The notes under the pieces: model-generated
What the model was told of the DNA's origin: nothing
What the model saw: only the letters and a program-made list of their open reading frames with translations
Databases searched by the model: none
Part shown: positions 1-7,571 of the stretch, in pieces
Position numbering within the stretch: the stretch's first letter is position 1
Layout of the letters: each line of letters starts with the position of its first letter
DNA from: Methylobacter luteus IMV-B-3098
GTDB lineage: Bacteria > Pseudomonadota > Gammaproteobacteria > Methylococcales > Methylomonadaceae
NCBI RefSeq assembly: GCF_000427625.1
Contig: NZ_KE386569.1
Location: 125,376-189,375, forward strand
DNA length: 64,000 nucleotides
Direction: 5' to 3'
Made by a program: the position numbers and the translations under genes

Positions 1-581
1 TGCACGATATCCCGCACAATGTCCGCCGCCCATTCGCTGCTTTCGCGTTCGTACACCTGCCAACCGACAATCTTGCGGCTGTAAACATCCATAAACAGAT
101 AAAGATACAGGAATACCCCTTTGACGGCCGTGGGCAGATAGGTAATATCCCAGCTGTACAGCTGATTGGGCGCCGTGGCCTTCAGGGCTTTCGGCTTGCG
201 GCAGTCGGTGGCCGCCCGACTGGCCTGGCGATGCTGAAGTTGCTTCGCCTCGCGCAAGATCCGGTAGAAGGTCGATTCCGAAGCCAGATACTGACCCCGC
301 TCGGCCAGAATCGGCACGATCTGGCTGGGCGCCAGCGCGGCAAATTCGGCCGAATTGGCTACCGACAACACGGACTGACGCTCCTGCTCACTGAGTTTGT
401 TCGCGGGAATCAGCTGGCGGCCGCGACGACCGTCTTCCGCGACTTCACCCGATTGCTGCCAGCGCTGCAACGTGCGCAAGGTGATCCCCAATAAGTCGCA
501 GGCTCGATGCCGACGGGCTCCGGCGGCGTGGGCTTCGTCTAGCCAAGACACAATTTGTTGGCGCTCTGACAGGGAAATCAT
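1..581 (-). CDS. IS3-family transposase OrfB, partial (DDE integrase core)
   Basis: The frame opens with ATG at 581 and runs off the left edge of the window with no stop, giving about 193 residues. An N-terminal HTH-like region and an HTH_21-like segment are followed by the rve integrase core: the motif SWDITYLPT carries the first catalytic Asp, and MDVYSRKIVGW lies downstream of it. The remaining acidic residues lie beyond the edge. The start overlaps the OrfA stop as ATGA and lies in the -1 frame relative to OrfA. Either translational coupling or the frameshifting usual in this family could therefore produce the transposase. Confidence 0.85.
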   Translation of the reverse strand, partial: MISLSERQQIVSWLDEAHAAGARRHRACDLLGITLRTLQRWQQSGEVAEDGRRGRQLIPANKLSEQERQSVLSVANSAEFAALAPSQIVPILAERGQYLASESTFYRILREAKQLQHRQASRAATDCRKPKALKATAPNQLYSWDITYLPTAVKGVFLYLYLFMDVYSRKIVGWQVYERESSEWAADIVRDIV

Positions 582-1078
582 GCGTCCTTTTCCTCCCAGA
601 GCGCCTGATACTTTTTTTGCAGAACCAGTAAGGCCGCCGCTTCCGCCAAGGCTTTTTCCTTGCGCTTCAGCTCCCGCTGTAACGCTTGATGGCTCACTTG
701 CAGTTCTCGCCAGTCAGCGCGACTGACGGCAGTCTCCGACGTGCCGGTTTCAAAGGCTTTACGCCAGGCGTGTAAATGATGCGGAAAAATCCCTTGTTCC
801 CGGCACCAGGCATGCAATGTTTCCCCTGCCTTGCCCTGACTATCCAGGATCAGTTGAAAACGTTCGCTCTGATTCCAGTCTTGAGGTCGTTTTGTCATCA
901 GGTCGGCTTGGCCCTCAACCACGTTTTTCGGTAATTTCATCCAGTTCTTCAACGTCCAGCTGTTTATGTTCAAGTCATCGGCAATCGCTTGAACGGTACG
1001 ATCGCCCCGGTTATAAACTTTCTCCAACGCCTGTTGGCGAAAAGCTTTCGTATAATAAGTCTTCTTTTTCAATTTCAT
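578..1078 (-). CDS. IS3-family transposase OrfA (helix-turn-helix protein)
   Basis: This 166-residue basic protein has an N-terminal helix-turn-helix (about residues 8-48; the segment NSWTLKNWMK is typical of IS3 OrfA proteins) that would bind the element's ends. A C-terminal Lys/Glu/Ala-rich stretch (about 125-160) is predicted by eye to form a coiled coil, as in OrfA multimerisation regions. It is longer than a typical OrfA of about 100 residues and seems to contain a second DNA-binding-like segment around residues 70-105. It ends in an ATGA overlap with OrfB. No disruption is visible in the part seen, so the element could be active. Confidence 0.85.
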   Translation of the reverse strand: MKLKKKTYYTKAFRQQALEKVYNRGDRTVQAIADDLNINSWTLKNWMKLPKNVVEGQADLMTKRPQDWNQSERFQLILDSQGKAGETLHAWCREQGIFPHHLHAWRKAFETGTSETAVSRADWRELQVSHQALQRELKRKEKALAEAAALLVLQKKYQALWEEKDA

Positions 1079-1130
1079 TACCTCTAATAGTCAATCAATG
1101 AAAATTAGAGGCGACAGTTATCCTGACACA

Positions 1131-1156
1131 GGGGGAGGTTGAGCGCTAGGTTAGAC
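1131..1156 (-). other. truncated integron attC site (R'' core plus start of L'')
   Basis: On the minus strand, in cassette orientation, the sequence GTCTAACCTAGCGCTCAAC begins at 1156. GTCTAAC fits the attC inverse core RYYYAAC exactly, and its TAA is the cassette gene's stop codon. The following GCGCTCAA is the kind of sequence expected at the L'' box. The rest of the attC hairpin and its R' core are missing because the IS3-family element starts about 26 bases in. The core pairs over 11 bases with the attI/cassette junction at 1779-1789 (TGTGGTCTAAC against GTTAGACCACA). Confidence 0.7.
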
Positions 1157-1771
1157 CACATTTGGCGCCGCCGCTCGGTATTTGGAGAGTTCTTCATCAG
1201 CCTGGCTTCGAGTGAAATCGTCAAGCCTCTCAGCCCAGCGCTCGAAATGCGTTTGATTTTCCATGGCCAAATCAAGAAGCAAAAGTTGCCTCCAGAACGG
1301 TTTCCCGCCAAAGCACCAAGGATCATCGGCGGCTAGTGCATCACGAGCGGCCTTGATTGTGGCGAAGCGTTCAAAAAATGGGTCTGCAATTCCATGGATG
1401 GCTGCAACTAATTCTGACGCTAAAGAATCAGGTGGAGCCGTTATATCGACGGACCACGTATAAGGGCCGCGATAGGTCAAGCCTTGCATGGATTCGCGAT
1501 TCAAAGAGTACTGCTGGATGTGATAGTAAAACTGGTGCTCGCCCAAAAGCTTTTCCACTCTCTTGGCATCTGAAAAATTACGTCCGAAGTAGAAGGACAA
1601 GGATATGTGTGGCGACCACTTGTTTGAACCTGAAAGAATAATGACGTTGTGCCCGTCTGGCGCTTCGGCACGAAGCTCCAGACGGGATTTAAAGAACTTG
1701 TATTTGCCACCCAATAGCGCGGCAACTTGTGCACCAAGTTGTTGCTGGAAGAGTTCTGCAGAAGAGGCCAT
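1151..1771 (-). CDS. integron cassette gene, protein of unknown function
   Basis: I do not recognise this 206-residue protein. It has no signal peptide or membrane segment, is mixed alpha/beta in appearance and rich in aromatic residues in the middle (about residues 50-110). Its C-terminal third (about 125-195) looks helical and charged. The ATG lies only 8 bases inside the cassette boundary, and the TAA stop is embedded in the attC core. Compact packing of one gene into a cassette is typical of integron cassettes, which often encode proteins without known relatives. Expression would depend on an attI or intI promoter. Confidence 0.75.
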   Translation of the reverse strand: MASSAELFQQQLGAQVAALLGGKYKFFKSRLELRAEAPDGHNVIILSGSNKWSPHISLSFYFGRNFSDAKRVEKLLGEHQFYYHIQQYSLNRESMQGLTYRGPYTWSVDITAPPDSLASELVAAIHGIADPFFERFATIKAARDALAADDPWCFGGKPFWRQLLLLDLAMENQTHFERWAERLDDFTRSQADEELSKYRAAAPNVV

Positions 1772-1782
1772 GTGAGTGTGTG

Positions 1783-1907
1783 GTCTAACTATAAGTAGAC
1801 ACCTTCTCAGGTGTATATAAAAATGAAATCACAGGTGTATAATGCCACTCTTGCAATCCGTTAGGTGTGATTCTATAGTAATCGCTATATTGATATCAAC
1901 CTTATTT
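1783..1907. other. attI-like recombination and promoter region
   Basis: The minus strand carries GTTAGAC (1789-1783), an exact GTTRRRY core with crossover expected after its G, where the cassette begins. Two direct copies of CAGGTGTATA (1808-1817 and 1832-1841) lie 24 bases apart in the same interval; paired direct repeats next to the core recall the extra IntI-binding sites of attI, but this assignment is inference. A further GTTAGGT on the plus strand (1860-1866) also fits GTTRRRY. A TATAAT at 1838-1843 could be the -10 box for intI. I saw no CTGT-N8-ACAG LexA box. Confidence 0.6.
1872..1899 (-). promoter_or_regulatory. candidate cassette promoter (Pc-like)
   Basis: Read on the minus strand, TTGATA (1899-1894) and TATAGA (1877-1872) are separated by 16 bases and point at the cassette gene about 95 bases downstream. 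Position and orientation match the Pc promoter that integrons use to express their first cassette. The match is by eye only, and the region is AT-rich, so a chance hit is possible. Confidence 0.35.
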
Positions 1908-2879
1908 ATGCAAACTCAAAACACACCTCCAAAACTCCTTGATCAGGTCCGCGAGCGTATCCGTGTCAAGCACTATAGCATTCGTACCGAAAGGCAATAT
2001 GTACAGTGGATTAAGCGTTTCATTCTGTTTCACGGGAAACGTCATCCACAAGAGATGGGAATGGCCGAGGTGGAAGCTTTTTTAACGCATCTGGCAGTGG
2101 AAGGAAAAGTGTCGGCCTCAACGCAAAATCAGGCGTTATCCGGTTTGCTGTTTTTGTATAAAGAGGTGCTGTTAATCGATTTGCCGTGGCTGAATAATGT
2201 CGTGCGCGCCAAGCAGCCGCAACGTTTGCCGAATGTGTTGACGCGCACCGAGGTGAGGGCTGTATTGGTGCGGATGAGCGGAATCCATGGCTTGATGGCC
2301 AATCTCCTGTACGGCACGGGCATGCGCTTGATGGAGTGCGTGCGCCTCCGGGTGAAGGATGTGGATTTTGAACGCGGCGAGATTTTGATCCGCGACGGCA
2401 AGGGCGCCAAGGATCGGGTAACGATGTTGCCGGAGTCGTTGAAGGTTTCTCTGCAAGCGCATTTGCAACAGCGTCGCGCCTTGTTCGATGATGATAGCCG
2501 ACTGGGCAAGGCATCGGTTTATCTGCCGGATGCGCTGGAACGCAAATATCCTAATGCGTCGACTGAATGGGCCTGGCAATATATTTTCCCTTCCGGCAGC
2601 TTCTCACTTGATCCGCGCAGCGGCATCGAGCGTCGGCATCATATTGATGAAAAATTATTGCAGCGGGCGATGAAAAAGGCGGTGCAGGCCAGCGGTATAA
2701 CAAAGCTGGCCACGCCGCATACGCTACGCCACTCGTTTGCGACGCATTTACTCGATTCCGGCTATGACATTCGCACGGTCCAGGAACTGCTTGGTCATAA
2801 GGATGTACAGACGACGATGATTTATACCCATGTCTTGAACAAGGGCGGGCGTGGGGTAAGAAGTCCGCTGGATATGTAG
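1908..2879 (+). CDS. intI: integron integrase IntI (tyrosine recombinase)
   Basis: IntI recombines attI and attC sites to capture or excise cassettes. The protein from ATG 1908 has 323 residues, the usual IntI size. An upstream in-frame ATG at 1842 overlaps a TATAAT box and is less likely. An N-terminal SAM-like core-binding domain (about 10-95) precedes the catalytic domain, with the Arg of GTGMRLME and the boxes [12 protein letters not shown] and [14 protein letters not shown] holding the active-site His-Arg-His and Tyr. The segment [20 protein letters not shown] is the extra patch found in IntI and absent from XerC/XerD, which makes the call firm. The frame is intact, so the enzyme may be functional. 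Confidence 0.93.
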
Positions 2880-6035: not shown

Positions 6036-7571
6036 TTATCAGCATTTAAATCTCATCAGTTGTAAAATAGTGATGAGTTCAATCATTTTACCGCCATGAT
6101 TTCTGATGAGTCGCTTTATTCAGTTTGATCGTAACCAACAGTATTTGCTTCCGCCGTCCGTGGACGAATGGTTGCCGGAAGACCACCTGGCACGCTTTAT
6201 CGTCGAAGTGATCGATCAGCTCGATCTATCAAAACTGACAGGCCATTATTCTGGACGGGGTTCAGCGGCTTATCATCCGGCACTGCTGTTGGCCCTGCTG
6301 ATCTATGGTTATGCGACCGGCACGTTCTCCAGTCGCAAGATCGAGCGGGCAACCTACGATTCAGTGGCGTTTCGGTTCATTGCTGCCAATCATCATCCCG
6401 ATCATGACACCCTGGCTCATTTCCGCAAGACCTTTCTGGTGGAGTTGGAGGACTTGTTCGTACAAGTGCTGACACTGGCGCAGACGATGAAACTCGTCAA
6501 GCTGGGACAGATTTCGCTGGATGGTACCAAAATCAAGGCCAATGCCTCGAAGCACAAGGCCTTGTCCCATGGCCACATCGAAAAGCTGGAAGCGCAATTG
6601 CGTGAGGAAGTGCAGGCCCTGCTGAAAAAGGCAGCGGACGTTGATCAGGAAGAATTGGCCGACGGTATCGATTTGCCGGCGGAAGTCGCGCGTCGGGAAG
6701 ATCGCTTGAAAGCCTTGGCGGAAGCCAAGGCCAAGATTGCCGAACGGGTTAAAGAACGGGACGAACAAGCCCAAAAAGACCACCAGGAGAGACTGGCTGA
6801 CCGGGAGCGCCAGCGCCAGGCGGGCAAAAAACCCCGAGGCCAGGAGCCCAAGGCGCCCGAAACCGGCCCCCAAGCTAAGGACCAGATCAACCTGACCGAC
6901 GAAGCATCGCGGATCATGCCGAGCAAGGACGGCTTCGTGCAGGGCTACAATGCCCAGGCGGCCGTCGATGTTGACAGCCTGCTGGTGGTTGCCGCCACGC
7001 TCAGCCAGCATACCAACGACAAGCGGCAAGTCGAGCCGATGCTGAAAGCGCTGAACGCCTTGCCGGACAGCCTCGGCAAGCCGGAAATGCTGCTGGCCGA
7101 CAACGGCTACTTCAGCAAAGACAACATCCAGGCCTGTGTGGAGCAAAAAATTACACCCCTCATCGCGCTGGGCCGGGAAGCCCATCATCTGCCATTGGCG
7201 GAACGCCTGACGCCGGATGCACCGGAACCTGAAAGCGATGACCCGCTGGTCAAAATGGCCTGGAAACTCAAAACCCAGAGTGGCCGCACGCTTTATGGTA
7301 AACGCAAAAGCACGGTCGAGCCGGTATTTGGGATCATCAAACAGGTACTGGGCTTCCGCCAATTCTCGCTGAGAGGTCTTGATGCGGTAGCTGGTGAGTG
7401 GAAACTGGTGACTATGGCCTTCAATTTAAAGCGAATGCATGTGCTGGCGGCCGGATAACGGAAAAATAACCCGAAATAGCTCTTGGTTGGGCAGAACCGA
7501 AGACTCAATGCCGCCAATAATCCATATCGGTCAAATAAGAATCATAATACTGAACCCTGTCCGACAGACTC
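6023..7571 (+). mobile_element. complete IS1182-family insertion sequence in a CTAG target
   Basis: An intact transposase gene is bracketed by perfect inverted repeats. CTAG stands directly outside both ends (6019-6022 and 7572-7575), consistent with a 4-bp target duplication, although CTAG is its own reverse complement and could also be read as part of the repeats. It is inserted in an AT-rich intergenic region between the protease gene and the cytochrome gene. The intact frame and perfect repeats suggest recent arrival. Confidence 0.88.
6106..7458 (+). CDS. IS1182-family DDE transposase
   Basis: This 450-residue protein has the N-terminal DUF772-type domain common to IS1182/IS5-like transposases (about residues 15-120; the sequence YHPALLLALLIYGYATG is characteristic). 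A charged, coiled-coil-like middle follows (about 165-255, very rich in Lys, Glu, Arg and Gln), and then a DDE transposase domain to the C-terminus, in which LLADNGYFS and the final KSTVEPVFGIIKQVLGFR carry the usual Asp and Glu positions. Its GC content is higher than that of the flanks. The frame is complete. Confidence 0.92.
   Translation: MSRFIQFDRNQQYLLPPSVDEWLPEDHLARFIVEVIDQLDLSKLTGHYSGRGSAAYHPALLLALLIYGYATGTFSSRKIERATYDSVAFRFIAANHHPDHDTLAHFRKTFLVELEDLFVQVLTLAQTMKLVKLGQISLDGTKIKANASKHKALSHGHIEKLEAQLREEVQALLKKAADVDQEELADGIDLPAEVARREDRLKALAEAKAKIAERVKERDEQAQKDHQERLADRERQRQAGKKPRGQEPKAPETGPQAKDQINLTDEASRIMPSKDGFVQGYNAQAAVDVDSLLVVAATLSQHTNDKRQVEPMLKALNALPDSLGKPEMLLADNGYFSKDNIQACVEQKITPLIALGREAHHLPLAERLTPDAPEPESDDPLVKMAWKLKTQSGRTLYGKRKSTVEPVFGIIKQVLGFRQFSLRGLDAVAGEWKLVTMAFNLKRMHVLAAG

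Follow-up and report, generated by a model that had tools for sequence, protein, structure and literature searches.

Two chromosomal integrons in Methylobacter luteus, one of them with a mosaic integrase gene very probably formed by overwriting with DNA of the other's type

Results

The window, by which we mean the whole 64,000-nucleotide stretch analysed, corresponds to C1:125376-189375, C1 being a contig of 4.54 Mb in a genome of 5.03 Mb and four contigs. Its left end carries an integron integrase gene (intI, here copy 1), the adjacent recombination site attI and a first cassette whose own site, attC1, is cut by an insertion sequence (IS). The features are as follows.

1..1135, minus strand: right part of a 1660-bp insertion sequence with an IS3-like two-ORF transposase, lying inside attC1 (from its flanks, its copies in the genome and transposase families).
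1136..1156, minus strand: first part of attC1, including R'' (GTCTAAC, 1150-1156); the IS cuts the site here, and its remainder, L008:16782-16851, lies outside the window.
1151..1771, minus strand: ORF of cassette 1, 206 aa, without detectable relative in profile and sequence searches.
1783..1789, minus strand: attI/cassette core GTTAGAC, from the sequence; it pairs with R'' of cassette 1, and the crossover is expected between 1789 and 1788.
1783..1841, minus strand: attI, made up of the simple site GTTAGAC / AGGTGTCTAC (1783-1804) and two direct repeats TATACACCTG (1808-1817 and 1832-1841), a layout legible upstream of many related intI genes.
1790..2435, plus strand: tract common to both integrons of the genome at about 97% identity, covering attI, the promoter region and codons 1 to about 172 of intI; beyond about 2417-2435 the two are about 65% identical.
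1908..2879, plus strand: intI (copy 1), intact integron integrase of 323 aa (TIGR02249; Pfam Phage_integrase and Phage_int_SAM_4).

The reading frame of intI is open from 1842 to 2879 on the plus strand, with the ATG at 1908 as its likely start. In profile searches the product scored 494.3 bits against the integron integrase model TIGR02249 (cut-off, 265) and failed the models of XerC (155.7 bits; cut-off, 335.15) and XerD (146.1 bits; cut-off, 329.6), while the PRK15417 equivalog stayed just out of reach (421.6 against 435). An additional-domain patch specific to IntI can be read in the protein. The original prediction of an intact IntI-type integrase with this extra patch is upheld; the scores, far above the one cut-off and far below the other two, are not those of a Xer-like protein. 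The R, K, H-R, H and Y residues are legible as well, presumably in their familiar roles. LexA control of intI was considered and rejected: positions 1781-1930 contain no CTG-N10-CAG, and the top match to CTGT-N8-ACAG is off at 3 of 8 letters.

Cassette 1 begins at the attI core, the GTTRRRY motif anticipated on the opposite strand, which is found as GTTAGAC at 1789-1783; the ORF starts 12 bases from it. The tightly packed gene expected to end in an RYYYAAC attC core is this 206-aa ORF: R'' of attC1, GTCTAAC at 1156-1150, contains its stop codon and can pair with the start of the cassette to which it belongs. The protein had no match in Pfam or NCBIfam and no relative in plasmids, viral contigs or PDB sequences. 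Only its own genome matched among 101 genomes (100 relatives plus its own) and again in a 369-genome sample of the class, and the top match among 80 named intI loci reached only an E value of 0.031 and was discounted. A single-sequence AlphaFold2 model was unusable (pLDDT, 45.3; pTM, 0.34).

The complete IS measures 1660 bp (L008:16852-18511), has its right end at window position 1135 and is one of eight full-length copies in the genome. The 4-bp repeat AGGT stands on both sides of it within attC1, and the second half of that site sits 1.66 kb further left, where covariance model R1 (see below) gives an E value of 0.13. The IS predicted beside the array is thus present, and it splits attC1 rather than merely adjoining the array; with attC1 split in this way, cassette 1 is probably locked in place. 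The transposase of this IS copy (L008:16890-17957) has X residues in the record, which means that bases of this copy are ambiguous or masked.

Array 1 extends to the left past the IS, with 17 further attC candidates and, including the one in the window, 18 cassettes over 12.2 kb in all, ending near purL. A strict attC scan (uninterrupted L box, unsuitable spacers) returned no sites; loosened scans supplied sites for R1, which was trained on 25 sites from both arrays. In array 1 this model found 17 attC sites, 16 of them at E values of at most 5e-8 and one at 0.0032; 15 of the 17 had been in the training set, and the two untrained sites scored 1.6e-10 and 0.0032. Within the 64-kb window, with filters off, R1 returned nothing credible (lowest E value, 1.5). 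It also found 86 attC sites, all outside the training set, in 16 of 17 further loci that were our choice out of 80 named and 3 other loci. Genome-wide, with scores computed for 150 of 2103 first-look candidates, 39 sites passed an E value of 0.1; 16 of these belong to array 1, 16 to array 2 (described below), and 7 lie elsewhere. The prediction of a chromosomal integron whose array continues left beyond the IS was thereby substantiated.

In the 25 aligned sites, 97.3% of the cells in the L''/L' helix are paired, double-sided changes occur in four of its six pairs, and one column is constant and unpaired. A constant unpaired base between the L''/L' pairs is the extrahelical base expected of attC. 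The R''/R' helix is paired in 77.4% of cells, and its three outer pairs fail in 10 to 15 of 24 rows, as one would expect of an array, in which R' carries the end of the next cassette. None of 500 shuffles reached the observed values for cells paired, double-change cells or covariation score, while 133 of 500 did so for the count of pairs showing double changes and 41 of 500 for that of pair types. The start of a cassette pairs with its own R'' throughout the three variable positions in 16 of 18 cases in array 1 and 15 of 18 in array 2, against 5 of 18 and 1 of 18, respectively, for the start of the next cassette; the count includes array-2 units holding insertion sequences, and R'' of the split attC1 was entered by hand. 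L-box covariation and cassette-end complementarity together show, on sequence grounds, that the cassettes are real. By these signatures the window is confirmed to hold a genuine sedentary chromosomal integron of the ordinary kind. As the family is understood, its IntI would capture and excise cassettes by recombination between a folded bottom-strand attC and attI.

A Pfam scan took in 17 of the 18 array-1 cassettes (the one with a 70-aa ORF was left out); 10 of the 17 matched a family at an E value of 1e-3, and 8 passed a curated cut-off. The families are SnoaL/NTF2-like, DUF4145, WapI-like immunity, GFA (glutathione-dependent formaldehyde-activating enzyme), cupin (twice), dual-specificity-phosphatase-like and transpeptidase-fold. 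Against the class D beta-lactamase equivalog the transpeptidase-fold protein scores 295.9 bits, above the cut-off of 250, and among the 25 matches listed for it no OXA-family cut-off was passed. The cupin cassette is present twice, the copies being 99.0% identical over 595 bp. The suggestion that the array may hold undescribed cassettes stands for cassette 1, whose protein has no relative in the collections searched, and not for the array as a whole, which is little novel, with 8 of 17 proteins over a Pfam cut-off. GFA, a plausible cargo for a C1-using host, recurs in GFA-like cassettes at L008:12383-12802, L009:18270-18683 and L009:738-1151, two recognized by Pfam and the third by eye.

Five lone attC-like sites lie far from both integrons, at C1:374050, 891181, 1150227, 2841871 and 3830913 (L153-L157), with E values of 1e-6 to 0.005. 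Insertion of cassettes at secondary sites may account for them. The one at C1:374050 follows a small ORF, and the same stretch encodes another GFA-like protein.

A second intI gene (copy 2) is located at C1:1865160-1866134, beside prfC and 1.74 Mb from copy 1; its frame is open and non-degenerate. Array 2 comprises 18 attC candidates in 18.4 kb, 16 of them at E values of at most 3e-5 and two weak (0.029 and 0.44). One cassette is common to both arrays, at 99.4% identity over 468 bp. A cassette of array 2 (L009:10203-10315 and 13208) contains a 450-aa transposase ORF, the protein of which is identical to that of the ORF at window 6106-7458. A small tyrosine recombinase gene (L009:1989-4164; L138:7205-8256) abuts an attC R'' in the congener G001 and an attC-like end remnant in array 2; in L009 it is followed by a second ORF that by eye resembles an IS91-type transposase. 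The L009 and L138 elements are 84.5% alike, and this element may prefer attC sites.

Alignment of the two integrons showed an abrupt step. Identity between copies 1 and 2 is 45 to 50 of 50 positions per bin over window positions 1816-2415 and then 26 to 38 of 50; the C-terminal half of copy 2 is 65% identical to the window copy and 86% to the gene of the congener G002, which is of pure lineage B and stands at the same locus. Informative sites place the switch point of copy 2 at about nt 510-528 of intI (window 2417-2435): in nt 1-480, 164 sites are copy-1-like, 2 are G002-like and 14 are private to copy 2, and in nt 541-960 the numbers are 18, 108 and 43.

We then compared 107 genes (112 distinct intI stretches less five with stop codons) in all 5671 pairs. 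The pair of copies 1 and 2 has the largest difference between N-terminal and C-terminal identity (96.8 against 64.7%), and copy 2 with G002 has the most negative one (62.6 against 86.1%). The 12 highest pairs listed all involve copy 2, and among the 12 lowest listed, pairs without copy 2 reach no lower than -9.6. Copy 2 is the one clear outlier among the 107 intI genes. In trees of the half-genes, built from 27 rows of our choice, copy 2 groups with copy 1, G001 and G003 in the N-terminal half (support, 99/95) and with lineage-B genes in the C-terminal half (100/99); the other placement was rejected in both trees (AU test P values, 7.7e-5 and 2.5e-57), for clades picked after the identities were known.

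The same step was seen in none of 16 other related genomes with at least two IntI-type matches, 13 of them comparable over both halves. In this within-genome screen one intI half was missing in G030, G054 and G126, G150 was left out as two pieces of one broken gene, and in G118 the two copies are alike throughout (94 to 99%). A search for other intI mosaics with a free breakpoint gave candidates that we rejected: when copy 2 is set aside, the top 16 pairs score 18 to 21 points and break at columns 265 to 280, near the conserved 3' end. A metagenome-assembled genome labelled Nitrosomonas (L015, JAHBZZ010000019.1) encodes an IntI that shares 89% identity with the one in the window (92% in the C half), owing either to horizontal transfer between classes or to a mis-binned contig.

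The congeners indicate which type is native at which place. In G001 and G003, which belong to the same genus, the copy-1 place is occupied by lineage A, with the Hsp20-side flank in both and the purL-side flank in G003. In G002 the copy-2 place is occupied by a pure lineage-B gene, and the downstream flank matches over about 10 kb. Judging from these placements, the native integron beside prfC is of lineage B and had its attI and N-terminal half replaced. The attI boxes speak of the same two types. The lineage-B boxes TATACGAC...GTCGTATA were found by pattern in 4 of 107 upstream regions, all of lineage B; L129, a fifth lineage-B gene, keeps one repeat only. Copy 2 carries the lineage-A type, TATACACC...AGGTGTCTA, which is not confined to lineage A: its pattern occurs in 56 of the 107 regions, and another 47 fit neither type. 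In the common tract dS between copies 1 and 2 is 0.10, compared with 0.27 between copy 1 and G001, so that the overwriting probably took place after the species had separated. The corresponding dN between the two copies is 0.013, the mark of a half-gene that stayed under constraint.

Discussion

Window-type DNA has very probably overwritten part of copy 2 and so given rise to a chimeric integrase. The segment replaced beside prfC would run from attI through the promoter region of intI into its N-terminal half, and the likeliest route is gene conversion, with copy 1 as partner in an ectopic homologous recombination. The product would combine a lineage-A N-terminal half with a lineage-B C-terminal half behind a lineage-A attI. 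Both integrases would then face the same attI type, and the two arrays could draw on a common cassette pool. The sequences themselves show the anatomy, the array, the mosaic and the loci, while we infer gene conversion as the mechanism, a donor in the same cell, activity of the product and the pooling of cassettes. The position of the breakpoint counts against this explanation: it lies 50 to 120 nt beyond intI nt 405-461, where the two lineages resemble each other most.

Did the overwriting DNA come from copy 1 itself? The donor might instead have been a lineage-A integron acquired by horizontal transfer from another strain. Lineage A is widespread and the tract differs from copy 1 by 3.2%, both of which would suit an outside donor, but the tract in copy 2 resembles copy 1 (96.8%, the nearest of the 107 genes) more closely than it does the congeners G003 (93.3%) and G001 (92.9%), and none of the 107 genes is a lineage-A intI nearer to it than copy 1. 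We regard an outside donor as rather unlikely, though it deserves to be kept in mind.

Copy 2 could also have begun as a duplicate of copy 1 whose C-terminal half was replaced instead; the outcome would again be of A type in the N half and of B type in the C half. We find this improbable, as copy 2 and the lineage-B integron of G002 share synteny over about 10 kb on the downstream side, and a copy-1 duplicate would need to have arrived at precisely that spot. Still less probable is an artefact of assembly, in which reads of two similar integrons were misjoined. The genome does hold two similar loci, and there are ambiguous bases (X residues) in the IS beside copy 1; however, the copies differ by 3.2% across the tract, and these differences are mostly synonymous and spread, which argues that copy 2 was not made of copy-1 reads. 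Moreover, the copies are 1.74 Mb apart with their own flanks, and G002 has the same flank beside a pure lineage-B gene. As for the window itself, the reading of a Xer-type or phage-type recombinase beside chance motifs, with no integron, could point to the weak match of IntI to the Xer models and has a negligible chance of being right, with TIGR02249 far over its cut-off, the Xer models far under theirs, 17 attC sites in tandem left of the window, and cassette ends that complement their own R'' in 16 of 18 cases against 5 of 18 for the neighbour's end.

Overwriting of copy 2 by window-type DNA remains the best explanation, and it raises the question of function. Non-cognate attI/IntI pairs generally recombine poorly (review, PMC8946536), and the N-terminal domain was regarded as having a part in recognising attI and attC (PMC2426708). 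For this reason the co-transfer of attI and the N-terminal half looks meaningful; it is no proof, as one contiguous tract carries both anyway. We tentatively consider, as a possible but doubtful extension, that the swap is functional: attI recognition would lie mainly in the N-terminal half of IntI, so that both had to move, the chimera would be active and join the two arrays into one pool, and conversion between resident integrons would be a one-step change of attI specificity. The single cassette common to both arrays hints only faintly at traffic between them and need not postdate the conversion.

The integron as such is of a known kind, known in Methylococcales too: integrons have been reported in Methylococcus Mc7 and M. 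geothermalis IM1 (PMC8527097), and an attC covariance model has been built for the order (PMC8352920). The window integron resembles these sedentary chromosomal integrons in having intI, attI and a divergent array of attC-tagged cassettes on the chromosome. Unlike the Methylococcales integrons in the available text of these reports, it is one of two full integrons on a chromosome, the other having an apparently chimeric integrase and an attI of foreign type. Genomes with more than one intI were treated by Nemergut et al. (2008; PMC2426708), the available text of which describes no actual chimera, whereas here the donor type, the recipient type and the breakpoint can be named. No natural chimeric intI was described in the literature searched, most subscription journals being outside its coverage. 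In contrast to the co-evolved attI/IntI partners set out in the available text of the review (PMC8946536), attI appears here to have moved with the N-terminal half of the enzyme while the C-terminal half stayed.

The pair of integrons matters more than the window integron, which is a further example of a known system. A natural domain swap could be used to test, with natural proteins, where attI specificity lies, and the pure parental type of each half is available in congeners. If our explanation is true, resident integrons can converge on one attI via gene conversion and need not stay separate.
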